Positions 34,147 through 55,025 of a DNA stretch of 64,000 bases are shown here, piece by piece (position 1 is the first letter of the stretch; each line of letters begins with the position of its first letter). The position numbers were made by a program, and so were the translations under genes. The stretch covers positions 2,728,001 through 2,792,000 of the forward strand of contig NZ_CP117709.1 in the NCBI RefSeq assembly GCF_028622875.1, in the 5' to 3' direction. The notes under the pieces were generated by a model, which was given only the letters and a program-made list of their open reading frames with translations, ran no database searches and was not told the DNA's origin. The DNA comes from Streptomyces sp. MMBL 11-1. GTDB lineage: Bacteria; Actinomycetota; Actinomycetes; Streptomycetales; Streptomycetaceae.

Positions 34147-36372
34147 GTGCCTCGGTTCTCCGTCATCGTGCCCGCATTCCGGGTCCAGGCGTATCTGCAC
34201 GCGTGTCTGGATTCCGTGCTGGCCCAGTCCTTCAAGGACTACGAGGTCGTCGTGGTCGACGACTGCTCCCCCGACGCCTGTGGACCGATCGCCGACGAGT
34301 ACGCCCGCCGGGACCCCCGCGTCACCGCGCTGCACCTCCCCCGCAACACCGGCCTCGGCCCCGCCCGGAACGCCGGGATGGCACGGGCGGGCGGCGACTA
34401 CCTGATCTTCCTCGACGGCGACGACACCCTGCTGCCGGACGCGCTCCAGACCATCGCCGACCGGATCGACGCGACCGGCGGGCCCGACGTCCTGATGTAC
34501 GACTACGCCCGCACCTACTGGACGGGCCGCAGCGTGCGCAACGTCCTGGCCGCCCATCTCGACGAGGGCGGGCCCGCCACCTTCCGGCTCTCCGACCGGC
34601 CCGAGCTGCTGCGGCTCCTCATGGTCGTCTGGAACAAGGCGTACCGCCGCGCGTTCATCGAGGCCGAGGGGTTCACCTTCCCGCCCGGCTACTACGAGGA
34701 CACGCCCTGGACCTACCCGGTGCTGATGTCGGCCGGGTCGATCGCGGTACTGGACGCGGTCTGCGTCTCCTACCGGCAGCGGCGGCGCGGCAACATCCTC
34801 TCCACCACCAGCGAGAAGCACTTCGACGTCTTCGACCAGTACGACCGGGTCTTCGCGTTCATCGACGCGCGCCCCGAACTCGCCGTGTGGCGTCCGGTGA
34901 TGTTCCGCCGGATGCTGGACCACTTCTCGGCGCTCTTCGCCTCCCGGGACCGGCTGCCGCACCACAGCCGCGCCGCGTTCTTCCGCCGGGCGGCCGCGTA
35001 CGGCCGCCGCTACCGCGCCCCCGGCGCCCCGGTCCCCCGCCGCACCCTGCTGCGGCACGGCCTGCTGCGGCTCGGCGCGCGGCGCACCTACCAAGCTCTG
35101 TCGGGCGCCCAGCGCCTGGCCGGCCGGCTGCGCCGGGGTTCGGCGGCCGTACGCCGGGCGGTGCGGGGCGCGGCGCTGCGGACGCACTACCGGATCCAGT
35201 CGCGGCTGCCGCTGCGCTCCCGGGACGCGGTGTTCGCCGCCCGGGGCGGCGGGTACACGGGCAGCCCCGCGGCGATCGAGGCGAAGGTCCGCGAGCTGGT
35301 CCCGGGGGTGCGGACGGCCTGGATCTGCCGGCCCGCCGACGCCCCCACCGTGCCGGCCGGCACCCGGCACCTCGCGACCGGCACCTTCGCCCACTGGACG
35401 GCGCTGGCCCGCTCCGCGTACCTGGTGAACGACTCCGCCTTCGACCGGGGGCTGGTCAAGCGCCGGGGCCAGGTCCTGCTCCAGACGCACGAGGGCACGC
35501 CGCTGCGGACCGTGGGCACCGATCTGCTGGACCGGCCCGCCGCCGCCCGGGACACCGACTTCGAGCAGCTGCTGCGCTCGGTGGACACCTGGGACTTCTC
35601 CCTCTCGGCCAACCCGCACTCCACCCTCGTACGGGAGAGGGCCTATCCGTCCGCGTACACGACGCTGGAGTACGGCTCGCCGCGCAACGACGTGTACCAC
35701 CGCACCGGCCCGGCGGAGGTGGCGCGGCTGCGCGAGTCGCTGGGGATCCCGGCGGGCAGCACGGCCCTGCTGTACGCCCCGGCGCACCGCGACTACCGGC
35801 GTGTCCAGCGGCCCGTCCTGGACCTGGAGCGGCTGGTCCGGGTCCTGGGCCCGCGGTTCGTGGTGCTGGCCCGGGCGCCCCGCCCCACGGGTGTCGACGG
35901 CCACCGGGCGCCGCACCCCCGGATCATCGACGTCCATGGGCACCGGTCCGTGGAGACGCTGGCACTCGCGTCGGACGCGCTGATCACGGACTACGCGTCG
36001 CTGATGTTCGACTACGTCAACCTGGACCGCCCGGTGGTGCTGCACCTGGCCGACATCGAGGCGTACGAGGCGGCACGGGGAACGTACTTCGACATCACGG
36101 CGTTCCCGCCCGGCATCGTGGCCCGGGGCCAGGACGAGCTGTTCGACATCTTCGCCTCGGACCACTGGCGGGGCTCACGCTCGGCCCAGTTGCGGGCCGC
36201 GTTCCGGGCCCGGTTCTGTCCGTACGACGACGGTTTCGCCGCCGAGCGGGTGGTGCGGCGGGTCTTCCTCGGGGAGACGGACGGGCTGCCGCTGCCGGTG
36301 CCGTCCGCCGCCCGCCGGACGCCCGCGGCCCTTCCGGCGCAGGACGGGGCCGGGGCGGGCGTCAGGGGCTGA
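34147..36372 (+). CDS. GT2 glycosyltransferase fused to CDP-glycerol glycerophosphotransferase-like polymerase
   Basis: A 741-aa bifunctional wall-polymer enzyme. Residues ~1-230 are a GT-A family-2 glycosyltransferase (RFSVIVPAFRVQAYLHACLDS, VVVDDCSPDA, FLDGDDTLLPD with the DxD metal site, then DTPWTYPVL). Residues ~390-700 match CDP-glycerol:poly(glycerophosphate) glycerophosphotransferases: YLVNDSAF, QTHEGTPLRTVG near 446 (the catalytic HGTP is HEGTP here), LLYAPAHRDYRR and ITDYASLMFDY near 613. The C-terminus is Ala/Pro-rich. It likely adds sugar and phospho-alditol units to a teichoic-acid-like chain on the inner membrane face. GTG 34147 is the only start that keeps the whole GT2 domain; no good ribosome-binding site precedes it. 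Convergent with the next operon. Confidence 0.85.
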   Translation: MPRFSVIVPAFRVQAYLHACLDSVLAQSFKDYEVVVVDDCSPDACGPIADEYARRDPRVTALHLPRNTGLGPARNAGMARAGGDYLIFLDGDDTLLPDALQTIADRIDATGGPDVLMYDYARTYWTGRSVRNVLAAHLDEGGPATFRLSDRPELLRLLMVVWNKAYRRAFIEAEGFTFPPGYYEDTPWTYPVLMSAGSIAVLDAVCVSYRQRRRGNILSTTSEKHFDVFDQYDRVFAFIDARPELAVWRPVMFRRMLDHFSALFASRDRLPHHSRAAFFRRAAAYGRRYRAPGAPVPRRTLLRHGLLRLGARRTYQALSGAQRLAGRLRRGSAAVRRAVRGAALRTHYRIQSRLPLRSRDAVFAARGGGYTGSPAAIEAKVRELVPGVRTAWICRPADAPTVPAGTRHLATGTFAHWTALARSAYLVNDSAFDRGLVKRRGQVLLQTHEGTPLRTVGTDLLDRPAAARDTDFEQLLRSVDTWDFSLSANPHSTLVRERAYPSAYTTLEYGSPRNDVYHRTGPAEVARLRESLGIPAGSTALLYAPAHRDYRRVQRPVLDLERLVRVLGPRFVVLARAPRPTGVDGHRAPHPRIIDVHGHRSVETLALASDALITDYASLMFDYVNLDRPVVLHLADIEAYEAARGTYFDITAFPPGIVARGQDELFDIFASDHWRGSRSAQLRAAFRARFCPYDDGFAAERVVRRVFLGETDGLPLPVPSAARRTPAALPAQDGAGAGVRG

Positions 36373-36441
36373 CCCCGGGCCGTCGCCGGATCCGTGCCCG
36401 GGGCCTGCCCCGCCCGGGCTCGGAGCGGGTACGGAGCGTGC

Positions 36442-37584
36442 TCAGCGTTCCAGGAGCGCGAACAGCTCCTCCCAGCGGCGCAGGGTCTCCGGCTCGGAGA
36501 ACCGCTGGACGCCGGACCGGGCCCGCGCGCCCATCGCGTCGCGCAGCCGGGGGTTGCCGGTGAGCCGCAGCAGCCGGTCGGCGAGGGCGGCGACGTCTCC
36601 GGCGGGGGCCAGGAGGCCGTCCTCGCCGTCGCGGACGATCTCGCGCACCCCCGGCGCGCAGTCGAAGGCGGCGCAGGGCACGCCGCTGGCCATCGCCTCC
36701 AGGAGGGCCAGCGGGAAGCCCTCGCCCCGGGAGGACTGGACGAAGACGGAGGCCTCGGCGAGGGCCCGCTCCACGTCGTCGGTGCGGCCCATCCACTCCA
36801 CACAGCCGTCGAGGCCGAGTCTCGTGCACTGCTCCTTCAGCGCGGCCTCGTCCTCGCCGGCCCCGTACACGCGCAGCCGCCAGTCGGGGCGGGCGGGCGC
36901 GACCAGGGCCCAGGTGTCCAGAAGCAGGTCGATGCCCTTCTGGTCGCTGAGCCGGCCGATGCTGGCGACGGTCCTCGCGGTGCGGGGGGAGGGCACGGCG
37001 GGCAGGCGGGAGAGGGCGTTGGGCAGGAAACCGACGTTGTTCATGCCGTCCCCGGCCCATTGGTCGGCGTCCTCCTCGGTGAGGACGAGCCAGTGGTCGA
37101 GGTCCTTGTAGTGCTTCTTGATCCAGCGGTAGCGATGGCTCGCGCGGGAGTAGCCGTAGGACTCGTGGCTCATCCCGATGACCCGCAGCCCGGTGGTGTC
37201 GGCCTCCCCGACCCATTCCATCGCCCAGACCTGGGTGACGATGACGACCGCGCCGGGGCGGGCGGTCGCGAAGATCTCCGAGAGCCGGGCGACCGCCCGC
37301 TTCTTGGCGGCGGCCCGGGCCGCCTCCCTGCGCCGGGTGGGGAGGCGGAAGCGGTCGCGGACACCTCGGGGCGTCCAGGGGGTCGGGGGGTGGGCGGGGT
37401 AGAGGGCGGTGACGGGGTGGGCGGGCTGTGCGGGCAGCGCCATCTTGAGGTCGGAGGCGTGGATGCCGATGGCGTGGACCCGGTGGCCCTGGTCGGCGAA
37501 GAGGCGGGCGGTCTGGTGCATCCAGCCGGTGACGCCGCCGAGTTCGTCGGTGCTGTTGGAGACGATGAAGATGTCGCGGCTCAT
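36442..37584 (-). CDS. GT4 family glycosyltransferase
   Basis: A 380-aa GT-B glycosyltransferase. The N-domain starts MSRDIFIVSNSTDELGGVTG, the donor side has SIGRLSDQKGIDLLLDTWALV near residue 210, and the E-x7-E signature region EGFPLALLEAMASGVPCAAFD is near 290 with the retaining-GT glutamates. The donor sugar is not predictable. The start codon overlaps the stop of the upstream polymerase gene by 4 nt (ATGA), so the three genes 43906 to 36442 form one translationally coupled operon. It probably builds the sugar part of the repeating unit or side chain of the polymer. GC-rich inverted sequences in the 69-bp gap to 36372 may terminate both convergent units. Confidence 0.9.
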   Translation of the reverse strand: MSRDIFIVSNSTDELGGVTGWMHQTARLFADQGHRVHAIGIHASDLKMALPAQPAHPVTALYPAHPPTPWTPRGVRDRFRLPTRRREAARAAAKKRAVARLSEIFATARPGAVVIVTQVWAMEWVGEADTTGLRVIGMSHESYGYSRASHRYRWIKKHYKDLDHWLVLTEEDADQWAGDGMNNVGFLPNALSRLPAVPSPRTARTVASIGRLSDQKGIDLLLDTWALVAPARPDWRLRVYGAGEDEAALKEQCTRLGLDGCVEWMGRTDDVERALAEASVFVQSSRGEGFPLALLEAMASGVPCAAFDCAPGVREIVRDGEDGLLAPAGDVAALADRLLRLTGNPRLRDAMGARARSGVQRFSEPETLRRWEELFALLER

Positions 37585-40460
37585 CGGCCGGCCCCCCGGT
37601 CCTGGTCGATGGTGTGGTGGGCGCCCCGGGAGGCTCCGGGGCCGAAGACGGCGGCGACGGTCCTGCGGGCCGCGTCGCCCCGGTCGTAGGGCCCGAACTG
37701 CCGGACGAAGGACCGGCGTCGGTCGGCGTACCGGGTGTCGGTCCTCTTCAGTTCGGCGAGGGCCGCGAACAGCTCCTCCCGCGTCGCGGTCACCGGCCCG
37801 GGAGCCTTCTCCCGCAGGTCGAAGTAGCTGCCGCGCTCGGCCGCGTACGCCTCCAGGTCGGGGGCGTACAGCACGACGGGCCGGTCGAGGAGGGCGAAGT
37901 CGAACATGATGGAGGAGTAGTCGGTGATCAACACGTCGGTGAGCGTGAGCAGTTCGCTGACGTCGTGGTGGCGCGAGACGTCGATGACGGTCCCGGGCGG
38001 GCAGGGCGGCAGCCGGGCGGACTCCAGGTAGTGGGCGCGCACCAGCAGGGTGTGGGTGTCGCCGAACCGCTCCGCGAACTCCCGTACGTCCAGCAGGAGA
38101 CGGCTTCTGCGCTGCTTGCCGGGGCCGCCCCGGAACGTGGGGGCGTACAGCACGGTCTTCTTGTGGTCGTCCAGCCCGAGCGCCCCGGCGAGCGGCGGGC
38201 GCGGCAGCCGCCCCTCGGTCTCGGCCCGGGTGCGCTCCGCGATCAGGGCGTCGTTGCGCGGGTAGCCGGTGCGCAGGAGCCGCTCCTCGGGCAGCCGGTA
38301 GGCGCGGGCGAGGGTGTTCACGTCGTGCTCGGAGCGGACGAGGAAGTGGTCGAAGCGGTCCACGGCCCGCTGGAGCCGCGCGCGCTGGGAGGTGTTCTGG
38401 AGCCGTACGCGCTGCTCGTCGAAGCCCATCCGCTTGTACGCGGAGCCGTGCCAGGTCTGGAGGTACGTGGTGTGCCGGGGCTTGTGCAGCTGCTGCGGGA
38501 AGCCCTGGTTGTCGACCCAGAACTCCGCGCGGGCGAGCGCCCACAGGTAGCGCCAGGACCAGCGGCGTACGAGGCGGGCGTCGTCCGGGAAGCCCGCCGG
38601 GGAGGGGTCGTAGGACCACGTGGCGTGGAGTTTCAGGCCCTGGCGGCGGATCTCCTCGTACAGGGCGCGCGGGCTGTCGCCGTAACAGGTGCCCATGTGG
38701 CTTTCGAGGACGACGGAGCCCCGGCGGACGGGGAGCCGGGTGAGCCAGGTGTTGTAGACGGGGACCTTGAAGCCCCGGGAGCGGTAGCGCTCCAGCCGTC
38801 CCCGCAGGGACCGGACGAGGAGCTTCGCCTTGCGGGCGGGCCGGAAGCGGGTGGCGTAGCGGACCAGGCGGTGGGTGGTGCGGGCCGGGCGGCGGCGGGC
38901 GGTCAGCCGGAGCGCGAAGTGGTCCTTGAGCGTGATGTAGGGCTCCCAGGTGTCCCCGGCGAGCCGCCCGAGCCGGGGCCTGGCGGCGAACCGGAGGCCG
39001 CCTTCCACCTGGTCCTGCGGGGCGAACAGATCGCTGACGGACCGGGGCCCGTCGGGGCCCCCCGCGGTCACGGTCAGCCGCGCGTCCCACGCCGTGTCGC
39101 GGACGCCGACGGGGCGCAGGCGGCGCGTGACGTCGGCCCGCGCGCGCCAGATGATCCCGTTGCCGTCGTGCCGGATCTCCTCGACCGGGAACGCGACGGC
39201 GCGCGCCCCGCCCCGGGCCCGGAGCTCCAGGGTCGCGGCCAGGGGGGCCTCCGGGGCGGGCCCGCCGTGGCCGGGCAGTACGAGGCGGCCTTCCAGCAGC
39301 AGGCGGCCCCGGTCGGCGGTGGCGCGGGTGAGCCGGTTCATCAGCCGGGCTTCGCCGAACGCGCGGTACTGGTGGCCGAGTTCGGTGACGTCGATGTCCG
39401 GCCCCTCCGGGCCGCCGCCCCAGGCCACCCGGCCGTCCGCCCCCGTCGTCAGCGGCGCGCACACGGTGGCGGGTCTGCTCAGCGCGTACGCCGCGGCGAG
39501 GGCCCCTTCGGCGTCGCCCCGGGCCAGCAGGCTCACGGCGACCCGCTCCAGCGGAGGCAGGCCCGGCAGGCCCGTACGGAAGGAACCGCTCAGCGCGCGT
39601 GCGGCGACCGCGGCGGTGCGGGCGCGGCGGGCGGCGGGCAGGTGGGGGAAGGTCCGCACGAGCGGCACCAGGTGGTCGCGGGCGAACGCCTCCTCCCGGT
39701 CCTCGCGCAGCCCCGGAAGCCCCCGCGTGAGGAGGGTGTTGGCGACCCTGCGGTGGGCCTCGGTCAGGGCGGCGAGGTCGCGGGCCCGGTCGGGGACGGC
39801 CCGGCCGGTCACGATCAGCCGGCGCACCAGGGCGATCCGTCCGACCGCGGCGGCGGCGAGCGGGCCGAAGAGGATCTCGCCGTACGTCAGGTCCTCCTCG
39901 TACCGCAGCCCGTGCCGCCTGGCGGCCTCGCGGCGCAGGCAGAACCCGGTCACCAGGGCGTCCCTGACGACGAGTTCGGGGGCGTCGGTGAAGCGGGCGA
40001 GCGTGCGGGAGCGGGCGTACAGCTGACCCTGCCAGGACGGCTCCCGCTCCTTGCCGCCCTCGGCCTCAAGCATGCTCCAGCGGCCGGCGATCAGGTCGGC
40101 GCGGCTGGTCTCGCCCGCCTGCCACAGGTTGCGGCAGGCGTGGAGCTGGAGGCGTTCGCCGGGGGCGAGGACCAGGACGTACCGGCCGTCCGCCGCGTCC
40201 AGGCCCACGTTGCGCAGGGCGCCGGTGGTGCGGGCGGCCGGGTCGGCGTGGAGGAGCCGGACCCTCCCGGGGGCGCGGTCGGCGAGCGTCCGGGCAGCGG
40301 TGCGGACGGCCGCCTCGGCGGTGGAGGCGAGGACCACGACGGCCTCGGCTCCGCGCAGCGACTGGCCGAGCACGGACTCCACGGAGGCGCGCAGGGCGTC
40401 GGCGCCCCCGGGGCCCTCGCCGTCCCCGCCGCCGGTGATCACACAGCTGAAGTCGCTCAC
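37581..40460 (-). CDS. Multidomain CDP-glycerol glycerophosphotransferase-like polymerase (959 aa)
   Basis: The N-terminal ~320 residues are a degenerate GT2-like domain (SVESVLGQSLRGAEAVVVLAS ... NVGLDAADGRYVLVLAPGERL). The canonical DxD is not evident: the usual DSDD position reads APGE, so this half may be non-catalytic. A beta-rich middle region (~340-590) with several TLELRARGG-type strands follows. The C-terminal glycerophosphotransferase domain (~590-940) has FWVDNQGF, QTWHGSAYKRMG near 668, VLYAPTFRGG, HYLESARL, ITDYSSIMFDF near 848 and a YFDLREKAPG ending. It polymerises phospho-alditol units from a CDP-activated donor onto a lipid-linked primer. Start GTG 40460 overlaps the upstream stop (GTGA). 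Confidence 0.85.
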   Translation of the reverse strand: MSDFSCVITGGGDGEGPGGADALRASVESVLGQSLRGAEAVVVLASTAEAAVRTAARTLADRAPGRVRLLHADPAARTTGALRNVGLDAADGRYVLVLAPGERLQLHACRNLWQAGETSRADLIAGRWSMLEAEGGKEREPSWQGQLYARSRTLARFTDAPELVVRDALVTGFCLRREAARRHGLRYEEDLTYGEILFGPLAAAAVGRIALVRRLIVTGRAVPDRARDLAALTEAHRRVANTLLTRGLPGLREDREEAFARDHLVPLVRTFPHLPAARRARTAAVAARALSGSFRTGLPGLPPLERVAVSLLARGDAEGALAAAYALSRPATVCAPLTTGADGRVAWGGGPEGPDIDVTELGHQYRAFGEARLMNRLTRATADRGRLLLEGRLVLPGHGGPAPEAPLAATLELRARGGARAVAFPVEEIRHDGNGIIWRARADVTRRLRPVGVRDTAWDARLTVTAGGPDGPRSVSDLFAPQDQVEGGLRFAARPRLGRLAGDTWEPYITLKDHFALRLTARRRPARTTHRLVRYATRFRPARKAKLLVRSLRGRLERYRSRGFKVPVYNTWLTRLPVRRGSVVLESHMGTCYGDSPRALYEEIRRQGLKLHATWSYDPSPAGFPDDARLVRRWSWRYLWALARAEFWVDNQGFPQQLHKPRHTTYLQTWHGSAYKRMGFDEQRVRLQNTSQRARLQRAVDRFDHFLVRSEHDVNTLARAYRLPEERLLRTGYPRNDALIAERTRAETEGRLPRPPLAGALGLDDHKKTVLYAPTFRGGPGKQRRSRLLLDVREFAERFGDTHTLLVRAHYLESARLPPCPPGTVIDVSRHHDVSELLTLTDVLITDYSSIMFDFALLDRPVVLYAPDLEAYAAERGSYFDLREKAPGPVTATREELFAALAELKRTDTRYADRRRSFVRQFGPYDRGDAARRTVAAVFGPGASRGAHHTIDQDRGAGR

Positions 40461-43400: not shown

Positions 43401-43906
43401 GCGCGGCGGAAGACCTTGTTGCAGGCGATGCGGTCACCGAGCAGAATCCAGTCCCGGGTGACGTGGGTGGCCCGCCGCGCCTTCTCCATCGGCTTGCGGA
43501 ACATCGGGGACTGTTCCAGCTTCCCGCCCGCCCGCAGCCGGAGCACGTTGCCGGTGGCGAAGTCGGAGCCGGAGCTGTCGAGTTCGGCCAGCATGCGGGC
43601 GTACGCGCCGGGCGGTACGACGTCGTCACTGTCGACGAACGTCAGGAACTCCGCGCCGGGGTCGGCCTCGCGGACCCCGGCGTTGCGGGCCGCGCCGAGT
43701 CCGGCGTTCTCCTGCCGGAGCAGCCGGAAGCGCGGGTCGCGGTCCACGAACTCCTGTGCCAGAGCGGGGCCGTTGTCCGTGGACCCGTCGTCGACGAGGA
43801 CGACCTCCAGGTCCGGCATGGTCTGCTCGGCGAGCGAGGAGAGGCAGGCACCGAGGTACTCCTCGACGTTGTAGAGGGGGACGACGACGGTGAGACGGGG
43901 TGCCAT
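40457..43906 (-). CDS. GT2 plus CDP-glycerol glycerophosphotransferase giant enzyme (1149 aa)
   Basis: Residues ~1-320 are a complete GT2 domain (LTVVVPLYNVEEYLGACLSS, VLVDDGSTDN, TFVDSDDVVPPGAY with the DSDD metal motif, NKVFRRAFWDEHAFAFP). Residues ~400-760 are a long beta-rich region of the kind found between catalytic domains in TarS-like wall enzymes (LTGHAYVRNAPGGPVRLGWL ...). Residues ~790-1145 are a glycerophosphotransferase domain with QTWHGTPLKRIGRDL near 880, ILYAPTWRDDH, HYLVGGSIPDTAF, VTDYSSIMFDF near 1054 and GFCFDFEHRAPGPL. All key polymerase motifs are intact. ATG 43906 matches the GT2 start, with AAGGA about 13 nt upstream. It is the first gene of the coupled three-gene operon with 40460 and 37584. 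Confidence 0.87.
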   Translation of the reverse strand: MAPRLTVVVPLYNVEEYLGACLSSLAEQTMPDLEVVLVDDGSTDNGPALAQEFVDRDPRFRLLRQENAGLGAARNAGVREADPGAEFLTFVDSDDVVPPGAYARMLAELDSSGSDFATGNVLRLRAGGKLEQSPMFRKPMEKARRATHVTRDWILLGDRIACNKVFRRAFWDEHAFAFPTGVLYEDIAVVLPAHFLAGSVDVVEEPVYHWRDRDGSITTRRAVPRGIRDRVTAVTTVSRFLAARPELAEAKRRYDAHALSGDLWLFIEALGDGDAEFHEAFLEHAGAFAATVEPGVLTGLPLHLRVKWQLIRERRLPELLDLLADEKKDRDTFHVTGLLRPRAHHPAVRAPLPPATTALTPADLPVHAHLTEAVWRDGLLHLTGHAYVRNAPGGPVRLGWLRSGKRLIPLRTRPVPGDEATALSGRSLHRYDRAGFEAVVDPRRLAAKGTGGGGRTTWKLEAVVVGAGRPRRGPMRLVSTPAPPAALYTDERTRVVPVLAGNKLELRTERVAAVLTGQSAVEDAVRLEVKVLGDTGPVALRLTEWRTKETREFALRGSPGSRAADIPLSAFRGEDDIWGVQLVGEGQPLTVAARTDGQDGRYPLPGGRELYAAPNPSGDLVLTDRPVQPVVTSAAREEPGTLVLEGTFPDPTGAFRELVLRHSGHREEAVLGLERRDGDGFRAVIAPAAVEGPGGALPLAEGRWYLFLREPGERDPEAYRPLRLSSPLHHTLPWRQRSGHREFVLQRRHHDRLVLESGSALPPAERGAYGQRIQRERYAGLRAATVDEPRPAVLYSSFDGRQHSDSPRAIHRELAARGRDIDHLWVVRDQQTAVPEGVRPVALHSADWYEALARSRWIVTNTHLPEWFERAEGQCVVQTWHGTPLKRIGRDLAGTPHADAAYMASMEHRSAQWSVLVSPNRFSTPVLRRAFGYSGEVLECGYPRNDLLYAPDRDKVAAAVRERIAIPEGRRVILYAPTWRDDHPRRGGRYGLDLQLDLKRARESLGDDHVLLVRRHYLVGGSIPDTAFVRDVSRHPDAAELLLISDVLVTDYSSIMFDFAQTGRPMLFHTYDLAHYRDTLRGFCFDFEHRAPGPLIPDSAGIVAALRDPEAATAGHREAYERFREEFCDLDDGTAAAGVVDRMLKGEQA

Positions 43907-43950
43907 CGCGGCGCACGATCCTTCCGGGCGGACGCCATCAGGGGCAATGA

Positions 43951-44021
43951 GCGTCGGGGGCTTGAGCTTCGGGGCCTGGGCTTCGGGGCCTGGGCTTCGG
44001 GGGCTTGGACTTCCGGGGTGG
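43951..44021. repeat. 14-15 bp tandem repeat upstream of the three-gene operon
   Basis: Five imperfect copies of GCTTCGGGGCCTGG in the 295-bp region between the polymerase start (43906) and the next gene (44202), where the operon promoter should be. Confidence 0.7.
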
Positions 44022-44142
44022 GGCCCGTCGGGGGCCATGGGGTACAACCCGCGCCGGAAGGGCGGGTCACCCGAGGGGGCCCGTTCGGGTGACGCGGAGG
44101 GGGCGGAGCCACGCGCCCCAGGGGCGTGCCGGGAGCACGTTC

Positions 44143-44171: not shown

Positions 44172-44201
44172 GGTGCTCGGCGCTGCCGTGATGGGCTCGC
44201 G

Positions 44202-45071
44202 TCAGGGCTTCACGGCGATCCGGCCCTCGTCCATCCGCAGCAGCAGAAGGCGCTCACCGGTCTTGTCGAGGAACTCGTCGACCGCCTGCCGCGATCCCTG
44301 CCAGTAGCCGTAGTCGTCGATGAGGAGCACCCCGCCGGGGACCAACCGGGAGTACAGGTGCTCCAGTTCGTGCTTGGTGGAGGCGTACCAGTCGGTGTCC
44401 AGGCGCAGGATGGAGATCTGCTCGGGGGCTTGCGCGGGGACGGTGTCCTCGACCCGCCCCTGGACGTAGTGGACGCGCTCCTTCGGGTACGGAACGGTGT
44501 CGAAGCCCGCCTTGACGTCCTCCAGCGAGGCGACCGCCCAGATCGGCCGGTCCTTGCCCTGGGCGTCCAGCAGTTCCTGGGCCGGCCGCCCGTCGCGCCG
44601 CAGATCCTCGGCGGTGGGCGGGGTCATGCCCTCGTACGTGTCGAAGAGGTACAGGTCGCGCTCGGTCTCACCGACGGAGAGCAGGGTCCGGGCGCAGGCC
44701 TGCATGGAACCGCCGCGCCAGACGCCGCACTCGACGATGGAACCGGGGATGTCGTGCCGGGCGATGTAACGGGTGGCGAGGATGAAGGTGTTGAGCCGCT
44801 CCGGCGAGGTCATCGAGTACGGCTTGACCGCGCGGATGATGTCCTTCGCCTCGTCGTCGTAGTCCGCGGGGAACCCGGGCGCGGCCTTCTTCGCCTTGGG
44901 TTCCGGAGCCGTTACGGGGGTGGGTGCGGCGGCCGGAGCCGGTGCGGGGGCGGTGCGGGCGGCGGGCACCGTGACGCGCCTGAGCTGGTATCCGGTGAGC
45001 TGCTGAAGGACGCCGTTGACGGCGTTGCGCCAAGCCATGCCCCGGGACAGTACGCGCGGTTTGCGCCGCAT
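44202..45071 (-). CDS. TylF/MycF-family SAM-dependent O-methyltransferase
   Basis: A 289-aa protein. A basic and Pro/Ala-rich N-terminus (~1-65) precedes a Rossmann methyltransferase of the macrocin-O-methyltransferase family: SIVECGVWRGGSMQACARTL near residue 110, LYLFDTYEGMTPP, RVHYVQGRVEDT and the metal-binding ILRLDTDWYASTKHELEHLY, then GGVLLIDDYGYWQGSRQAVDEF. TylF enzymes methylate sugar hydroxyls. Here, next to wall-polymer polymerases, it probably O-methylates a sugar of the polymer; 3-O-methyl hexoses are known in streptomycete wall polymers. ATG 45071 has GAAAGA upstream. It lies 11 bp after the next methyltransferase gene on the same strand, so the two are co-transcribed. Confidence 0.88.
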   Translation of the reverse strand: MRRKPRVLSRGMAWRNAVNGVLQQLTGYQLRRVTVPAARTAPAPAPAAAPTPVTAPEPKAKKAAPGFPADYDDEAKDIIRAVKPYSMTSPERLNTFILATRYIARHDIPGSIVECGVWRGGSMQACARTLLSVGETERDLYLFDTYEGMTPPTAEDLRRDGRPAQELLDAQGKDRPIWAVASLEDVKAGFDTVPYPKERVHYVQGRVEDTVPAQAPEQISILRLDTDWYASTKHELEHLYSRLVPGGVLLIDDYGYWQGSRQAVDEFLDKTGERLLLLRMDEGRIAVKP

Positions 45072-45082
45072 GTCATCTTTCG

Positions 45083-45853
45083 TCAACCTGCCATTGATCG
45101 GGGCGGTTCCTGTTCGCGTGCGGCCCCCTGCGCGGGCACGGCCTCCGGGCGTCCGCACGCCTCACGGCCGTCCACCGGACGGGGCAGCGGTACCCCGTCC
45201 ACGCCGCCGACCCGGTTCGCCCACCACACCGTCAGCTCCCGTACGGCGAACATGGTCAGGCGGGGGTAGCGCCGCGGCTTACGGAAGACGCCGACGGAGT
45301 CGCCCCAGTAGGCGGCCTTCTTGTCGATGGCCCGGTAGTCGTGCCAGATGCCCTTGCGGGGCGGGAAGTCGGTGTACGCCTCGCGCAGTTCGAGCCGCGC
45401 GTGCGCGGCGAGCGCGCGGAACCCGTCGGGATAGTAGCGCCAGCAGTCCTGCGCGTCGTGGACGTGGCCGCGCGACGGGGCGGTGATGAACGCGTGGCCG
45501 CCCGGCTTCAGGATCCGGGCGATCTCCAGCATCGACGCCCAGAAGAACGGGATGTGCTCGAACGCCTGCCCGGACAGCACCACATCGGCGCTGTTGGAGC
45601 GGGCGGGGATGCGGTACGGCTTCCTCATCACCGCGTCGACGTTGGGGCCGTCCTGCACGTCGACACCGAAGTAGTCGACGGGGTGCCCGGCGAGCAACGC
45701 CCGGTGGGTACGGGTCTGTTTGCCGGAGATCCGCGACCCGAGGTCGACGACGCGGTAGGCGCCGTTGCCGGACGCGGCCCCGCGGGCAGGCCCTTCGACG
45801 GGCAGATACTCCTTGATGCAGAGTTCCATCTGCTCGTAGGCGGACCGGTGCAT
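45083..45853 (-). CDS. Class I SAM-dependent methyltransferase
   Basis: A 256-aa type-11 methyltransferase: motif I VVDLGSRISG near residue 36, DYFGVDVQDGPNVD (acidic ribose-binding loop), motif IV ADVVLSGQAFEHIPFFWASML and RILKPGGHAFITAPSRG. The C-terminal third is less typical (FAVRELTVWWANRVGG) and ends in a Pro/Arg-rich tail. The target is unknown; its position between the TylF-like gene and a polymerase gene points to modification of the same polymer. ATG 45853 is preceded by GGGAGA. The 159-bp gap to the polymerase gene at 46013 contains a 21-bp tandem repeat on that gene's stop. Confidence 0.85.
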   Translation of the reverse strand: MHRSAYEQMELCIKEYLPVEGPARGAASGNGAYRVVDLGSRISGKQTRTHRALLAGHPVDYFGVDVQDGPNVDAVMRKPYRIPARSNSADVVLSGQAFEHIPFFWASMLEIARILKPGGHAFITAPSRGHVHDAQDCWRYYPDGFRALAAHARLELREAYTDFPPRKGIWHDYRAIDKKAAYWGDSVGVFRKPRRYPRLTMFAVRELTVWWANRVGGVDGVPLPRPVDGREACGRPEAVPAQGAAREQEPPRSMAG

Positions 45854-45970
45854 GGACGTCTCCCAACATGGCGGGGTGAGCGAGATGCCGGGCACAACGA
45901 CCGGGCGGCACGGAAGAACCGGCGCGGGCGGGCCGCCTTGAGCCATTCGGGTGGCGGGGACACCCCGGTC

Positions 45971-46020
45971 GGTCAGGGACGGGGCCCCGGGTCACAGGGG
46001 CGGGGCCCCGGGTCACAGGG
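45971..46020 (-). repeat. 21-bp tandem repeat on a polymerase-gene stop codon
   Basis: Two full copies and one partial copy of a unit containing CGGGGCCCCGGGTCACAGG. The TCA at 46013-46015 is the stop of the polymerase gene, and the copy at 45992-45994 carries the same triplet. Confidence 0.75.
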
Positions 46021-47209: not shown

Positions 47210-47310
47210 GGCAGCCGAGGGTAATCGCGGGCCGGGACGGCACAGGAGCCGCGTTCACCCGTTCGGGGCAGCGCCGGTGACCCCGGGACCTGGCCCCTGT
47301 TGACCAGGAC

Positions 47311-50300
47311 ATGAAGCCACCAGTGCCGCCCCTCCTCAGCGTCGTCGTCCCCGTCCACAACGTCGAGGCCTACCTGGAGGACTGCCTGCGGTCGGTGGCG
47401 GACCAGACCCTCGAAGCGATCGAGGTGGTCATGGTCGACGACGGTTCGACGGACGGCAGCGCCCGGATCGCGGCGGAGTTCGCCGCCCGGGACGGCCGCT
47501 TCCGGCTGGTGCGGCAGCGGAACGCCGGCCTGAGCGCCGCCCGCAACACCGGCGTCCGGCACACCACGCCCACCGTCCCCTACCTGGCGTTCGCCGACAG
47601 CGACGACGTTCTCGTGCACGACGCGTACGAGCGGATGACGGCCTCGCTGGAGTCGACCGGTTCCGACCTGGTGACCGGCAATGTGTGGCGGCTGACCGCA
47701 CAGGGACGGCAGCAGGCGTGGCAGTACCGCTGGCTGACCGGCCCCCGGCCGCGTACCCACATCACCCGGGACCCGCGCCTGTTGGCGGACCGGGTGGCGT
47801 GGAACAAGGTGTTCAGGCGCTCCTTCTGGGACGCGCACGGCTTCGCCTTCCCCGTGGGCAGGCTGTACGAGGACACCCCGGTGATGATCCCCGCGCACCA
47901 TCTCGCCGGGTCCGTCGACGTCCTGCACGAGCACGTCTACTACTGGCGGGTGCGGGAGGGGTCGATCACCCGGCGGCGTACGGACGTCACGGGCGTACGG
48001 GACCGGATCGCCGCGTGCGAGCAGGTCAGCGCGTTCCTGGGCGACCGGGACGCGGCACAGCGGCGGGCCTACGACACGTCCTGTCTGCGCGACGACTTCG
48101 GGTACTTCCTGGACGGTCTGCCGCTGGGCGGCGCGGCGTACCGGGCGGCGTTCCTGGAAGGCGCCGGGGCCTTCGTCGACCGGGCGGGGCCCGGGGCGCT
48201 GGAGGGGCTGCCGGTGGAGCTGCGCGTCAAGTGGACGCTGGTGCGGGAGCGGCGGCTGGAGGAGCTGCTGGCGGTCCTCGCCTTCGAACGGGCCAACGGG
48301 GCGGGAACGTTCGCGGTCGAGGGCCCCCCGGGGCGGCGGCGGGCGGTGTACCCCGGGGTGCGCGGCGCGAGCGCCCGGCTCACGCGCGCGGACGTGCCCG
48401 CCGTGGCGCGGCTGCTGGAGGCGCGCTGGGGCGCGGACGGGAAGCTGCGGCTGCGCGGGTACGCGTATCTGCGCAACCTCCCCGCCGCCTCCGCCCGGCA
48501 CCGGCTCACGGTGGGGATGGTCCGGGCGGAGCGGGGCCGGCAGGTGCGCCCGGTGCCGGTGCGCTCCGTGTGCACGCCCGAGGCGACGGTGAGCTCCGGG
48601 CAGGAGCTGCACGGCTACGACCACGCGGGCTTCGAGATGGTCCTCGACCCGGACCGGCTGCCCGCGACGACGGAGGGCGGCGGCTGGCTGGTCGGCCTGG
48701 TCCTCGCCGCGCCCGGGGCGGTCCGGCGGGTGGCGGTGCGCGCCCCGGACGCGGGCGCGGACCAGCCGCTCGTTCACGACCTGGGCGACGGGCGGCGGGC
48801 GGTGCTCGACTACCGGGGCGGCCGGCTCCGGCTGACCGTGTCGCGCCTGCGGGCACGGGCCGAGGGGCACCGGACCGCCGGGGCGGAGGGCTCCTGGCTG
48901 GAACTCACGGGCCGGCTCTTCGACGGGAGCAGGCCCACGGCGCTGCTGCTGACACGCGACGGGAGCGAGGAGCGCTCCTGCCCGGTGGAGTACGCGGAGA
49001 CCACCGGGGCGAACGAGCACCGGACGCCGGGCGGGGCGGACCGGCACGGGGGCGGAGGGCCGGGCGGGGCGGACGGGAACAAGAGCGGGGCGCCGGACGG
49101 GGTCGGGTTCACGGTGCGGGTGCCGCTCGCCGACCTCGCCGGGGCCCCGCCCGCTCCGCACCGGGCGCCCCGCGAGGTCGAGGCGGCCGGCGGGGCGCGC
49201 TGGCGGGTCCGGCTGCTGCTCGCCGACGGCACCCGCGTCCCGCTGCCCGCCGCCCCGGACCTGCCGCCGCCCGCGTGCGCGGATCCGGCGGGCGACCTGG
49301 TGCTGGACCTGGCGGGGCCTCCGTACGCGGACCGGGTGGAGTGCACGCCGGAGGGGGCCCTGCGCGTCTCGGGGACGTACGTTCCGCCCGCTGCGGGGAC
49401 GGCGACCGGCCCCGGCGGCCGACTCGTCCTGCACCACGAGACGCTGCACGAGACGGTCCCGGTCGAGGGGACGGTCGCGCAAGCCGTGGCGGGGAACAGC
49501 GCTCAAGCCGTCACGGAAACCATCACGGAGTCCATCGCAGACTCCGTCACGGAGTCCGTCACGGAGTCCATCGCAGACTCCGTCACGGAGTCCGTCACGG
49601 AGTCCATCGCGGAGTCCGTCACGGAATCCGTCACGAACGCAGATGCGGACGAAGATACGGACGGAGATGCGAACGGGGTTGCGGACGAGAGCGCGGGCAG
49701 AAGCCCAGGGGCGAGGCCGGACGACGTCAGCCCGGGTATGAGCCCGGACGGGCTCCCCGCCCCCGCGGCGGGCGGCCGGTCGCGGTTCTCCGTGCTGATC
49801 GCCCCGCCGCTCCCGGAAGGCCGCTGGGAGATCCGCCTGGACGGCCACCCCGTACGCGTCCTCGGCTCCGCCGCCGCCCAGCTCCCCTCCGGCCGTGGCG
49901 AGAGCGCCCTGCGCCCGGAGCGGCGGCACGGCGACCGGCTGTCCGTCGTCGCGGTGCCGGAGTCGTCGGCGGTGGCCGGGCGGAGCACGTACGGCAGGCG
50001 GCTCCTGCGCGCCGCGCACTACCGCGACGGGCGCACGCTGCTCCCGCTCAGCGAGACCGTCCTCTACGCGGGCGGCGACTCCCCGCGCGCCGTCCACACC
50101 GAACTCGTGCGCCGGGGCACGGAGACCGAACACCTGTGGGTCACCGGTACCACCCCCGGCCGCACCACCCACGTCCCGCCCGGCGCGCGGGCCGTCCCCG
50201 TGCACAGCCCCGCCTGGTACGCGGCGCTGGCGCGCTCCCGCCGGATCGTCACGGACGAGCAGCTGCCCGAGTGGTTCGAGCGGCGTCCGGGGCAGACGGT

Positions 50301-51147: not shown

Positions 51148-51229
51148 GGGCGTCCGGGAGGCGTCGCCCGGAATCCCCCGGACGAGTGGCGGCGGGGAGA
51201 GCGGGCCCGCCGCACGGAACCCATGAGGT

Positions 51230-52468
51230 GTGCCCCTCTTCTCCGCTGCCTCCTCCTCCGCCCCGTCCTCCGGCGCCCCTCGCTCCGGCCTCCCGCCCGC
51301 CGCGGCCGGGGGCGACGCGGCCGACGGCCCGGCCCGGCCGCCCCTGTGGCTGCCCTCGCCGTACCTCGTGCTGGGCGGCCTGCTGTGGGCGGTGCTGTCG
51401 GCGGCGGCCTGGCAGGCTCCGCTGTGCTGCGAGACCGGGCTGCAGGCGGCCGTCGTCGAACGGCTGCGGGTGAACCTGCTGCACCCGGCGTTCCCGATGA
51501 CCGACCTGCCTGCCGTGGCGAGCGCGCACTACTCCCCGTACGCGCTGCTCCAAGGGCTGGCCGCCCGCGCCACCGGCCTCTCGGGCCCGTCCGTCGTGGC
51601 GCTGGCCGCGTCGGTGAACCTGCTGCTCCTGCTGACCGGAATCGGCCGGCTCACCCGGCTGCTGACCCCGTCCCGCTGGGTCCCGGTCCTCGCGCTCGTG
51701 CCGCTGGCGCTGATCCACTGGGCGGACCCGGCCCGCTGGAGCGCGCCGAGCACGTTCGCGGTCGCGGTCACCCTGCACCTGTGGGCGTGGACCGGGCGCG
51801 CGACCGCCCGGGCCCCCCGCCCCGGTGATCCGAAGCCCGGCCGGACGCCCCGGTGGGCGGAGGCGACCGGGATCGGCGTACTGCTCGGGCTCGTCCTGCT
51901 GGTCCACCCGCCGACCGCGATCGGCGCGGCGATCGGGTGTCTCGCCCTGATCGCGGTCCGGACGCGGACCCGGATCCGGCCGACCGTGTGGCGGTGGGCG
52001 TTCGCCGTCGTGTGCGCGGTGACCGTGGCGGCGCTGTGGCCGTACTACAACGGGCTCACCGCCCCGCGTACCCCCGCCGACGGCCGGACCACGGGGCCCC
52101 CGGCGGCCGAGGGGGTGCGTGCGGCCGGGGAACCGTATGCCTGGGCGACCGCGCACGTGCCCCCGGGCGAGGTGGTCCTGACGGACAGCCGCCCGGCGAT
52201 GTACGCGCTGGCCGGCCACGGGGCGTACGTGCTGGCCGACGCGCTGCCGGACGCGGGGCTCGCGCGCACGGAGCGGCGGGAGAGGAGCCGGGCGGTGGCC
52301 TCGTACCTCGACGCGTCGACCCCGCGGGCCCGGCGGGACGGGATCACCGCCCGGTACGGGGTGCGGTGGCTGCTGCTGACCCGCTTCCAGCGGCTGCCCG
52401 AGAACGCGACGGTGCTGGCGTTCAGCCCGGCCACGGGCGAGGTGCTGGCGCGGGTACCGGCGGGCTGA
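51230..52468 (+). CDS. Polytopic membrane protein, possible truncated glycosyltransferase
   Basis: A 412-aa protein with a ~35-residue low-complexity N-terminus, about five TM segments (~45-270), and a soluble C-terminal domain (~290-412: GEPYAWATAHVPPGEVVLTDSRPAMYALAG ... YGVRWLLLTRFQRLPENATVL). That order, short TM block then extracytoplasmic C-terminal domain, resembles Streptomyces polytopic glycosyltransferase-like proteins, which normally have 9-13 TM segments. The junction WPYYNGLTAPRTPADG suggests that the middle TM segments were deleted in frame. I do not recognise a named family. GTG 51230 starts 82 bp after the giant polymerase on the same strand, so it may be co-transcribed and act in the same pathway. 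Confidence 0.65.
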   Translation: MPLFSAASSSAPSSGAPRSGLPPAAAGGDAADGPARPPLWLPSPYLVLGGLLWAVLSAAAWQAPLCCETGLQAAVVERLRVNLLHPAFPMTDLPAVASAHYSPYALLQGLAARATGLSGPSVVALAASVNLLLLLTGIGRLTRLLTPSRWVPVLALVPLALIHWADPARWSAPSTFAVAVTLHLWAWTGRATARAPRPGDPKPGRTPRWAEATGIGVLLGLVLLVHPPTAIGAAIGCLALIAVRTRTRIRPTVWRWAFAVVCAVTVAALWPYYNGLTAPRTPADGRTTGPPAAEGVRAAGEPYAWATAHVPPGEVVLTDSRPAMYALAGHGAYVLADALPDAGLARTERRERSRAVASYLDASTPRARRDGITARYGVRWLLLTRFQRLPENATVLAFSPATGEVLARVPAG

Positions 52469-52474
52469 GCGTCT

Positions 52475-53083
52475 TCAGGCGTGCTTGAGGGCGGCGACCG
52501 CCGAGGCGGCCAGATCGTCCAGGTAGCCCTTGGGCAGTTCGCCGCGGACCACGACGAGCCGCCAGTACAGCGGCCCCACGATCAGGTCGAGCGCCCGGTC
52601 CGGATCGCTGCCTTCCGGCAGCTCCCCCCGGGCCACGGCCTCCCTCACCACCACGGCGGCGACGCCCTGCTGCTGGTCCAGGAGCGCGGTCTTGATCGCC
52701 TCGGAGATCTCCGGATTGCGGGCCGCTTCGACCAGCAGGTCCGGGATGACCTGCGAGGCGACCGGGTGGCGCAGGGCGTACGCGGCCAGTTCCAGGACGG
52801 CGCGCACGTCCCCGTACAGCGAACCGGTGGCCGGGGCGGGCATCCCCTGGGCGGCGACGGCGGCGACCAGGTCGAGGACGAGCGCCAGCTTGGACTTCCA
52901 GCGGCGGTAGACGGCGGTCTTGCCGACGCCCGCACGCCGGGCGATGCCCTCGATGGACATCCGGGCGAACCCCACCGCGGCGAGTTCCTCGAAGACGGCG
53001 GCGCGGATGGCGTCCGTCACGTCCTCGCGCAGGACGGCGGCGCCTGCGGGGGCGCGGCGGCGGGTTCCCCGTTCGGTGGTCAT
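52475..53083 (-). CDS. TetR family transcriptional regulator
   Basis: A 202-aa (205 if the ATG at 53092 is used) TetR regulator. The helix-turn-helix spans ~22-65 (DAIRAAVFEELAAVGFARMSIEGIARRAGVGKTAVYRRWKSK) and is followed by a C-terminal ligand domain of the TetR_C_11-like type (HPVASQVIPDLLVEAARNP ... PLYWRLVVVRGELP). The ligand is unknown. It is divergent from tagG with a ~220-bp shared region containing a promoter-like element and a long inverted repeat, so it probably controls export of the wall polymer, its own expression, or both. Its stop lies 6 bp from the convergent membrane-protein gene. Confidence 0.88.
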   Translation of the reverse strand: MTTERGTRRRAPAGAAVLREDVTDAIRAAVFEELAAVGFARMSIEGIARRAGVGKTAVYRRWKSKLALVLDLVAAVAAQGMPAPATGSLYGDVRAVLELAAYALRHPVASQVIPDLLVEAARNPEISEAIKTALLDQQQGVAAVVVREAVARGELPEGSDPDRALDLIVGPLYWRLVVVRGELPKGYLDDLAASAVAALKHA

Positions 53084-53115
53084 GGCCCGCATGATAGTCG
53101 GCCGCGACGAAACGG

Positions 53116-53203
53116 TTGCGTTGCGACGTAGAAGCGTCCTACTCTCAGCGTTACGACGATACGGTCCCGTCCCAACGAGGGCGTCCCTACGGGGCCGTAT
53201 CGT
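53116..53203 (+). promoter_or_regulatory. tagG promoter and inverted repeat between tetR and tagG
   Basis: TTGCGT (53116-53121), an 18-nt spacer and TACTCT (53140-53145) form a plausible promoter toward tagG. AACGGTTGCGTT, a short inverted repeat, covers the -35 box. Downstream, arms ACGATACGGTCCCGT (53156-53170) and its complement (53189-53203) match at 14 of 15 positions with an 18-nt spacer. Either repeat could be the TetR operator. Confidence 0.4.
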
Positions 53204-53305
53204 CCCGTCGCCGTATTACCCCACCGCCCCACCGCCCCCTCGCTCCGGCGTTCCGGCGTTCCGGCGGTGTCCCCCTCCCGCTTCCGTCGAAAGCGATCGT
53301 TCGTG

Positions 53306-54241
53306 GTGAGCCAGACAGCAGCTCCACCGGCCCCGGTGAGCACCCCCGCCCAGGACGTCCCCACCTACGCACCCGGTGAGCTGGCCGCCCTGGCCGCCCG
53401 GCACGGCCTGACGGTCAGCGGCGCCAGGCCCTCGCTGCCCGCCTATATCCGGCAGCTCTGGGGGCGGCGGCACTTCATCGCCGCGTTCGCGACGGCCAAG
53501 CTGACCGCCCAGTACAGCCAGGCGAAGCTCGGCCAGATCTGGCAGATCGTGACGCCGCTGCTGAACGCGACCGTCTACTACTTCATCTTCGGCGTCCTGA
53601 TGAACACCAAGCACGGGGTGGAGGACTTCGTCCCGTTCCTGGTCACCGGGGTCTTCATCTGGACCTTCACCGCCAGCTCGATCACCGCGGGCACGCGGGC
53701 GATCAGCGGCAACATCGGCCTGGTGCGGGCCCTGCACTTCCCGCGCGCCTCGCTGCCGGTGGCCCTCGCCCTCCAGCAGTTGCAGCAGCTGCTGTTCTCC
53801 CTCGGCGCGCTGGCCCTGATCCTGCTGGCGTTCGGCCAGTACCCGAGCCCCTCCTGGCTGCTGGCCGTCCCGGCGCTCGCGCTCCAGGCGCTGTTCAACA
53901 CCGGGGTGTCGATGGCCGTGGCCCGGCTGACGGCGAAGACCCCGGACATCGCGCAGCTGACGCCGTTCGTGCTGCGGACCTGGATGTACTCCTCCGGCGT
54001 GATGTGGAGCCTGGACCACCTGCTCAAGGGGGAACGGGTGCCGCACGCGGTGATGGTGGCGCTGGAGTACAACCCGGCGGCGCTCTTCATCAACCTCATG
54101 CGGTACGCGCTCATCGACAGCTACACGGCGGCGCAACTGCCACCGTTCGCATGGGCGGTCGCGGCGGGCTGGGCGCTGCTGTGCGGCGTGGCCGGATTCG
54201 TGTACTTCTGGAAGGCCGAGGAGACGTACGGACGTGGCTGA
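53306..54241 (+). CDS. tagG: Polysaccharide/teichoic acid ABC exporter, membrane subunit (TagG type)
   Basis: A 311-aa ABC-2 type permease. A ~60-residue cytoplasmic N-terminus (VSQTAAPPAPVSTPAQ...) leads into the conserved interface segment KLTAQYSQAKLGQIWQIVTPLL and six TM segments, with the typical FIFGVLMNTKHGVEDFVPFLVTGVFIW, YSSGVMWSLDHL and YNPAALFINLMRYALI segments of TagG/Wzm exporters. It moves the finished lipid-linked polymer across the membrane for attachment to peptidoglycan. Two adjacent GTG codons (53303, 53306) are possible starts; neither has a strong ribosome-binding site. The tagH start overlaps its last 8 nt. Confidence 0.9.
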   Translation: MSQTAAPPAPVSTPAQDVPTYAPGELAALAARHGLTVSGARPSLPAYIRQLWGRRHFIAAFATAKLTAQYSQAKLGQIWQIVTPLLNATVYYFIFGVLMNTKHGVEDFVPFLVTGVFIWTFTASSITAGTRAISGNIGLVRALHFPRASLPVALALQQLQQLLFSLGALALILLAFGQYPSPSWLLAVPALALQALFNTGVSMAVARLTAKTPDIAQLTPFVLRTWMYSSGVMWSLDHLLKGERVPHAVMVALEYNPAALFINLMRYALIDSYTAAQLPPFAWAVAAGWALLCGVAGFVYFWKAEETYGRG

Positions 54242-55025
54242 TCCCCAGGACTCCCCCGGGCACGACCGGGTCCCGACGGTCGTCGTCGACGACGTCCACA
54301 TCACGTACACGGTCAACGGCGCCCGTACGGGCAAGGGCAGCGCGACCTCGGCGCTCAGCCGGATCACCACGCGCCGCCGTACCCCCGGCGCACGCCAGGT
54401 GCACGCCGTGAAGGGGGTCAGCTTCGCCGCATACAAGGGCGAGGCCATCGGCCTGATCGGCTCCAACGGTTCCGGCAAGTCGACGCTGCTCAAGGCGGTC
54501 GCGGGCCTGCTGCCGCCGACCCGGGGCAGGGTCCACACCCAGGGCCAGCCGTCGCTGCTCGGCGTGAACGCGGCGCTGATGGGCGACCTGACCGGGGAGC
54601 GCAACGTGGTGCTGGGCGGACTCGCGATGGGCATGACCCGCGAGCAGATCCGCGAACGCTACGACGAGATCGTCGACTTCTCCGGCATCAACGAGAAGGG
54701 CGACTTCATCACGCTGCCGATGCGCACGTACTCCTCGGGCATGGGCGCCCGGCTCCGCTTCTCCATCGCGGCGGCCAAGAGCCACGACGTGCTCCTGATC
54801 GACGAGGCGCTGTCCACGGGCGACGCGAAGTTCCAGCACCGCAGCAAGGACCGCATCAAGGAACTGCGCGCCGAGGCGGGCACGGTCTTCCTGGTCAGCC
54901 ACAGCAACAAATCGATCACCGAAACCTGCGACCGGGCCCTGTGGCTGGAGGCGGGCACGCTGAGGATGGGCGGCCCGGCGAAGGAAGTGGTCGCCGCGTA
55001 CGAGGCGTTCACCAAGCGCAAGTAA
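54234..55025 (+). CDS. tagH: Polysaccharide/teichoic acid ABC exporter, ATPase subunit (TagH type)
   Basis: A 263-aa ABC ATPase. The TagH/Wzt-type N-terminus is VVVDDVHITYTVNGARTGKG, followed by VKGVSFAAYKGEAIGLIGSNGSGKSTLL with Walker A near residue 80, GERNVVLGGLAMGMTREQIRERYDEIVDFSG, the signature YSSGMGARLRFSIA near 165 (SSGM as in polysaccharide exporters), and Walker B VLLIDEALSTGD. It lacks the C-terminal carbohydrate-binding domain found in some Wzt proteins, so export should not depend on a terminal sugar cap. It powers TagG. GTG 54234 overlaps tagG by 8 nt. Its last four codons and 12 bases beyond are duplicated in tandem. Confidence 0.93.
   Translation: MADPQDSPGHDRVPTVVVDDVHITYTVNGARTGKGSATSALSRITTRRRTPGARQVHAVKGVSFAAYKGEAIGLIGSNGSGKSTLLKAVAGLLPPTRGRVHTQGQPSLLGVNAALMGDLTGERNVVLGGLAMGMTREQIRERYDEIVDFSGINEKGDFITLPMRTYSSGMGARLRFSIAAAKSHDVLLIDEALSTGDAKFQHRSKDRIKELRAEAGTVFLVSHSNKSITETCDRALWLEAGTLRMGGPAKEVVAAYEAFTKRK

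Follow-up and report, generated by a model that had tools for sequence, protein, structure and literature searches.

Why does a single Streptomyces locus encode five TagF-like proteins, and do all of them work as polymerases? This question is raised by positions 34147-55025 of a 64,000-nucleotide stretch of Streptomyces sp. MMBL 11-1 (contig NZ_CP117709.1, positions 2,728,001 to 2,792,000; the whole stretch is called the window in the following), for which an initial annotation had proposed a wall-glycopolymer locus with five glycerophosphotransferase-type proteins, four of them fused to glycosyltransferase family 2 (GT2) domains. Five PF04464 (TagF-like) domains are indeed present in the proteins encoded between 34147 and 51147, here called T34, T37, T40, T46 and T47, with 267-389 bits against a Pfam cut-off of 22.1 and E-values from 2e-79 to 3e-116, and the given lengths of 741, 959, 1149, 398 and 1278 residues hold. 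In domain as well as in structure searches the C-terminal halves turned out to be glycerophosphotransferase-like, so that the refuting outcome named beforehand did not arise; the assignment to wall-glycopolymer synthesis is right, and the earlier interpretation as a whole is partly supported. The locus is of a known kind and comes from a well-studied genus, and the motif changes pointed out before are real but were over-read. The new element is that, as judged by their motifs, two neighbouring fusions have lost complementary active sites.

Complementary active-site losses in T34 and T37

The catalytic histidines of S. epidermidis TagF are H444 and H584 (PMC5974469). In T34, position 444 of this numbering is a glutamate (in the motif HEGTP) and the histidine at position 584 is absent; the other four window proteins (T37, T40, T46 and T47) keep both. 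Two conserved histidines are reportedly, to go by the title of a study cited on this point, critical in the TagF-like family. HEGTP, together with HGSA in T37 and YAG in T47, had been taken to mark specialised polymerases. The YAG of T47 is there as described (YSS in TagF), but HGSA keeps its histidine and HEGTP reflects a loss of catalytic residues, so that the term “five polymerases” overstates the count.

Among the 34 named loci found in a scan with T40, T34 was readable at both sites in 30, the other four being without coverage. Neither histidine is present in 18/30 and both are present in 12/30, including L022, which was scored by pattern as lacking the second histidine but is counted here because the printed letters show one. 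Thirty loci from genomes of the genus (own genome included) comprise eight with neither histidine, 21 with both, and one with alanine at 444 and H584 kept (L076). In a tree of 57 rows, all 24 double-loss rows form a single clade (support 100/99), residue 444 being E in 19 of them and R in the other 5, so that the loss is a single event on this tree. The tree included the motif columns; 50 of its rows are different, the same strain may be represented from two collections, and three of the 60 readable loci (L012, L041 and L045) do not appear in it because they are partial. With both histidines lost throughout this clade, HEGTP cannot be taken for a simple variation on a functional site. The GT2 motifs (DxD) of T34 are intact in 28/28 orthologues read.

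T37 appears, again by its motifs, as the mirror image of T34, with the GT2 site lost and the TagF site kept. Pfam detects a GT2 domain in three of the five proteins but gives no GT2 match for T37, so the proposed fourth GT2 fusion stands only in part: the predicted T37 structure has a GT-A-like fold and matches TarS and TagF, and a precomputed PF00535 match exists in many T37 relatives, but DxD is absent in T37 and in 117/117 relatives covering the motif site (120 listed, 3 without coverage). The relatives listed are 120 of 139 matches for T37 and 120 of 1131 for T40, each from 8000 scored candidates. In the TagF half, both histidines are present in 32/32 T37 orthologues read. Fifteen further proteins, which are part of 77 match rows, fall into two groups: DSDD and YED persist in the 11 that are 40-46% identical to T37 and are missing from the 4 at 55-59% identity. 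As DxD is kept in the more distant proteins and gone in the closer ones, the T37 line probably started from an intact two-domain enzyme whose GT2 site was lost at an early stage.

Are the dead halves simply decaying in enzymes that now have a single function? This explanation, which concerns the dead halves only and is compatible with the function proposed below, is quite possible, if not the one we would choose. The ratio of nonsynonymous to synonymous substitution rates (dN/dS; simple Nei-Gojobori estimates, given as medians over pairs with shared history and with no significance test) is 0.34 and 0.43 in two strain groups for the GT2 half of T37, compared with 0.16-0.25 for its counterparts in T34, T40 and T47. 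For the TagF half of T34, the loss group has a slightly higher value than the histidine-keeping group (0.30 vs 0.25), and the GT2 half of this protein has 0.25 vs 0.21. However, these values are well below 1 and the reading frames are open throughout the loss clade, so that the dead TagF half of T34 is still under constraint, perhaps slightly less. Moreover, T37-type proteins that are only 55-59% identical to T37 are already without DxD, and yet the domain was kept.

T40 as putative polymerase-glycosyltransferase

T40 is the only fusion of the window in which both motif sets are fully conserved: DxD is found in 31/31 and both TagF histidines in 33/33 orthologues read. PF00535 scores 116-121 bits in T34, T40 and T47 (cut-off 23.3), and the corresponding counts are 29/29 for DxD in T47 and 30/30 for both histidines in T46. 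In VIA-align comparisons, the T40 model matches S. aureus TarS over residues 3-511 (root-mean-square deviation, rmsd, 6.4), L. monocytogenes RmlT over residues 2-624 (rmsd 13.4) and S. aureus TarL over residues 628-1145 (rmsd 15.1), and the GT-A domain, the linker and the immunoglobulin (Ig)-like domains of TarS/RmlT type are present. In the model, the beta-rich linker thus resembles the Ig-like portions of TarS/RmlT followed by the N-terminus of TarL, a likeness that makes T40 look like a glycosyltransferase and a polymerase of wall teichoic acid (WTA) in one protein. TarS, RmlT and TarL are separate proteins, whereas their counterparts form one chain in T40, and the domain orientations differ. 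A T40 linker of unknown fold is ruled out by these matches; the structure prediction that had been recommended as a check covered T37 and T40.

In T47, the two histidines are found in 26/27 and 27/27 orthologues read, and the second serine of TDYSS is replaced by glycine in 27/27. Among all parts for which dN/dS was compared, the T47 linker reaches the top value, 0.60 in one of the strain groups. Inside this linker, at 49508-49635, lies a 36-bp tandem repeat with 3.6 copies.

Comparison with known systems and distribution

The GT2-TagF fusion is neither unusual nor a novelty, being shared by S. epidermidis TagF and by capsule polymerases. S. epidermidis TagF (3L7I) has a GT2-like N-terminus followed by the TagF domain, i.e. 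the same order, and two matching stretches each with T34, T40 and T47. It differs in lacking the beta region of several hundred residues between the domains and in keeping the two catalytic histidines that T34 lost. The TagF-like capsule polymerases Cps1B, Cps3D and Cps7D combine glycosyltransferase and TagF-like domains in one chain, as do T34, T40 and T47 by Pfam and T37 by its model, and Cps3D (8QOY) was a match for T46 as well as for each of the four proteins compared with the PDB. By score, the closest solved relatives are TagF, then Cps3D and TarL. Many capsule polymerases have TPR domains (PMC5974469), whereas the extra region of the window fusions is beta-rich and TarS/TarL-like. No TPR match is listed by Pfam for the window proteins, though no analysis aimed at TPR was made of their helical parts. 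B. subtilis GgaB has a C-terminal TagF-like domain. This RmlT-like GT-A transferase belongs to the minor teichoic acid of that organism (PMC4441387).

The number of polymerase genes is not exceptional either: PF04464 matches occur in 188/200 Streptomyces genomes, and 57 rows of a hand-copied genome list (189 rows, one above the tally of 188) have at least five, which rules out five TagF-like genes as a peculiarity within the genus. T34 relatives at E <= 1e-100 are found in 165/200 and T37 relatives at E <= 1e-150 in 74/200 of these genomes; among the T37 matches listed, 26 genomes (own included) have a relative at an identity of at least 55%, and the remaining rows are at 40-46%. The 34 distinct named loci of the T40 scan comprise 33 from Streptomyces and one from Kitasatospora, many of them from the griseus/anulatus/globisporus group, and the window itself is from a griseus/anulatus-group Streptomyces. 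Where the contigs reach, the same gene order recurs in these loci, with the five polymerase genes, the GT4-type gene and the TylF-type gene. By tblastn, the class-I methyltransferase gene was not found in L025, though the contig spans its place, and only a partial match was obtained in L012; the search for the 51230 gene came up empty in ten loci with contigs extending past its place (L023, L026, L027, L028, L030, L033, L036, L037, L043, L045).

S. coelicolor has two WTA gene sets, whose glycosyltransferases include SCO2981, SCO2982, SCO2983 and SCO2997 (PMC3937824). The cluster SCO2979-SCO2998 resembles the window by its description as a Streptomyces WTA cluster of glycosyltransferases and TagF homologues, and it is very probable, as we infer, that the window corresponds to this cluster around SCO2997. 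The next gene after the tagGH-like pair, a 1668-residue frame, presumably encodes NAD-glutamate dehydrogenase, and the presumed positional match rests on this neighbour. To go by the title of a paper, SCO2997 was studied as a TagF homologue that takes part in sporulation. In S. roseosporus, a gene for a TetR-type protein of about 206 residues, TagR, is divergent from an ABC permease/ATPase pair, and the window shares this arrangement, the likeness being one of arrangement only. TagR acts as a repressor of tagGH and binds to the tagR/tagG promoter, and a tagG mutant shows no spores under the scanning electron microscope and is rescued by B. subtilis tagG (PMC10269677).

A second WTA locus and the proposed function

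A search of the own genome (8.5 Mb) gave the same five PF04464 genes and a sixth one 0.5 Mb away at C1:2244947. This second locus encodes an LCP-type protein, a 922-residue TagF-like protein, a 414-residue GT2 protein with TarS_linker, and a 504-residue frame with IspD and short-chain dehydrogenase parts, i.e. a TarI/TarJ-like fusion. In S. griseus, SGR_4957 (TagF) and SGR_4956 (TarIJ) adjoin the genes of the ribosomal proteins L21 and L27 (PMC13274773). As the content of the second locus matches these genes, the window is the other WTA-type locus of griseus-type organisms; the TagF/TarIJ and Utr locus of S. griseus, which belongs to the same species group, has its counterpart in the second locus, not in the window. 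The second locus also contains a gene (L046:17351-19486, minus strand) for a 711-residue protein with a hydrophobic N-terminus and a PF04464 score of 23.9 bits, the cut-off being 22.1.

S. griseus WTA is described as ribitol-phosphate with 1,5- and 1,3,5-linked units and terminal 3-linked glycerol-phosphate, bearing a linked teichuronic-acid-like chain that is the umbrella-toxin receptor and is bound by the umbrella-toxin lectin (PMC13274773). The earlier expectation of a complex polymer agrees with this chemistry, and the locus most likely helps to build and decorate ribitol-phosphate WTA, with putative donors and product. On balance, and by a small margin of confidence, we think that the window contains a Streptomyces WTA assembly and export locus with T40 as polymerase-glycosyltransferase, which works together with the second locus. 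The latter would contribute cytidine diphosphate (CDP)-ribitol made by the TarI/TarJ-type fusion, a split GT2/TagF-like pair, and an LCP-type ligase. T40, which most likely unites a WTA polymerase with a TarS/RmlT-like glycosyltransferase, would extend or cap the polyol-phosphate chain and add sugars. T46 may be a single alditol-phosphate transferase, T37 may act via its TagF half only and T34, in this clade, via its GT2 half only, and T47 would retain its GT2 half next to an altered TagF half. The methyltransferases could O-methylate a sugar of the polymer; part of the glucose in S. antibioticus WTA is 3-O-methylated, though glucose was not seen in S. griseus WTA (PMC13274773). Finally, TagGH would export the chain, with the TetR protein as regulator.

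In this proposal, the dead halves have probably persisted as folded modules for assembly. Cps7A without catalytic activity is still able to stimulate long-chain capsule synthesis (PMC11666461), and capsule polymerases mutated in one domain can be complemented in trans by mutants of the other domain (PMC5974469). By analogy with Cps7A, the complementary switch-off (T34 with GT2 on and TagF off, T37 the reverse) might have turned the dead halves into assembly or length-control modules, so that chain building would need a complex of half-dead partners around the intact T40, an idea that we regard as rather doubtful. No report on dead halves of such fusions was found in titles or abstract starts of the open-licence papers searched. 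Close relatives of T34 in which both histidines are present offer a natural control when asking if the dead TagF half matters. The synthesis of type II WTA is described as little known in a capsule polymerase study (PMC5974469), and the window offers a testable parts list for WTA synthesis, including one enzyme, T40, that resembles TarS/RmlT plus TarL in a single chain, with a split version in the second locus.

Evidence against the proposal and alternative explanations

Several points weigh against a WTA locus centred on T40. Residues 116-219, within the GT2 half of T40, are poorly modelled, the alignments with TarL and RmlT have rmsd values above 13 and are barely tested past residue 360 according to a warning of the tool, and TarS_linker stays under its cut-off of 27 in T40 (19.2) and T47 (25.9). 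Among the pathway families, TagD does not reach the NCBIfam cut-off in the own genome (best 66.4 of 165.4 bits) or in any of 61 Streptomyces genomes including the own one, a cut-off that may be too strict for actinomycetes, and there is no TagA-family match, so that the textbook linkage-unit route is not recognisable. None of the TarB, TarF and TarL equivalog cut-offs (500, 550 and 1000) is reached, the best being T40 to TarF with 294 of 550 bits. The wall polymers reported so far for S. coelicolor are teichulosonic acid and polydiglycosylphosphate (PMC7831098), and the 2025 work on S. griseus points to the TagF gene of the second locus and not to the window genes (PMC13274773). The sole TagD-like cytidylyltransferase found in the genome (L048:5138-5587, minus strand) adjoins a CDP-alcohol phosphatidyltransferase gene.

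What alternatives exist for ribitol-phosphate WTA as the product? With no equivalog cut-off reached and with TagD and TagA unrecognised, “glycerophosphotransferase” is to be read as a family name only, which leaves room for a transfer of sugar-1-phosphate by the TagF-like halves. The locus would then build a poly(glycosyl phosphate) such as the polydiglycosylphosphate that occurs in S. coelicolor (PMC7831098), and some TagF-like capsule polymerases do make poly(oligosaccharide phosphate) (PMC5974469); also the lack of a TagD over the cut-off would agree. We nevertheless consider this unlikely, as a TarI/TarJ-like fusion is encoded in the genome and S. griseus WTA is ribitol phosphate (PMC13274773), as the S. 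coelicolor repeat is alpha-linked (PMC7831098) while GT-A/TagF polymerases were reportedly found only with beta-linked capsules (PMC5974469), and as the ranking of solved structures is headed by TagF, with Cps3D and TarL following. That all five proteins are active polymerases making several polymers or an alternating sugar/phospho-alditol chain, as originally proposed, would suit five PF04464 and several GT2 domains kept in one locus across the griseus group, but it is highly improbable with both catalytic histidines gone from T34, DxD gone from T37, and glycine for the second serine of TDYSS throughout the T47 orthologues read.

Layout of the locus and further observations

The features of the locus are compiled in Table 1. 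The surrounding genes had been named correctly (GT4, TylF-like and class-I methyltransferases, TetR, TagG-like and TagH-like), and the suggested coupled operon is reflected in the 4-bp overlaps of the GT4-type gene with the T37 gene and of the latter with the T40 gene. The two methyltransferase genes sit between T40 and T46.

Table 1. Features of the putative WTA locus (window coordinates).
Feature	Position	Strand	Evidence and remarks
T34: GT2 + TagF-like, 741 residues	34147..36372	+	PF00535 119.9 bits, PF04464 337.1 bits; GT2 motifs intact, both TagF catalytic His lost
GT4-type glycosyltransferase, 380 residues	36442..37584	-	PF13692 134.3 bits, PF00534 128.5 bits; 4-bp overlap with T37
T37: degenerate GT2 + beta domain + TagF-like, 959 residues	37581..40460	-	PF04464 323.8 bits, no GT2 match; fold matches TarS, TagF
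T40: GT2 + TarS/RmlT-like and TarL-like beta region + TagF-like, 1149 residues	40457..43906	-	Pfam, model and VIA-align matches; both active-site motif sets intact
TylF-type O-methyltransferase	44202..45038	-	PF05711 146.3 bits; start set by GC frame
Class-I methyltransferase	45083..45853	-	PF08241 34.8 bits, cut-off 21.2; start set by GC frame
T46: stand-alone TagF-like protein, 398 residues	46013..47209	-	PF04464 389.1 bits; 3L7I match; both His kept
T47: GT2 + long linker + TagF-like, 1278 residues	47311..51147	+	PF00535 120.6 bits, PF04464 267.4 bits; TDYAG replaces TDYSS
Hydrophobic, probably multi-transmembrane protein, 412 residues; membership in the system uncertain	51230..52468	+	No family match
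TetR-family regulator, candidate TagR, 205 residues	52475..53092	-	TetR_N + TetR_C_11; divergent from tagG, 174-bp gap
TagG-like ABC permease	53267..54241	+	PF01061 49.6 bits
TagH-like ABC ATPase	54234..55025	+	PF00005 70.0 bits; 8-bp overlap with permease gene

In the Pfam scan, longer frames were used for T40 (to 44164), the TylF-type gene (to 45158) and the class-I methyltransferase (to 45946); the T40 start at 43906 agrees with the lengths of the relatives listed, which are 1147-1201 residues, many of them 1149-1150. For the 412-residue protein, neither Pfam nor NCBIfam gave a family at E 0.01.

Two further frames were noted ahead of the locus. The gene at 31527-32915 (plus strand) encodes a sugar-type ABC permease with about 115 added residues between its membrane parts that resemble an Ig/SdrD-type domain, Pfam covering residues 317-450 only, and the 1268-residue frame at 26135-29941 (plus strand) combines FHA and FtsK/SpoIIIE domains.

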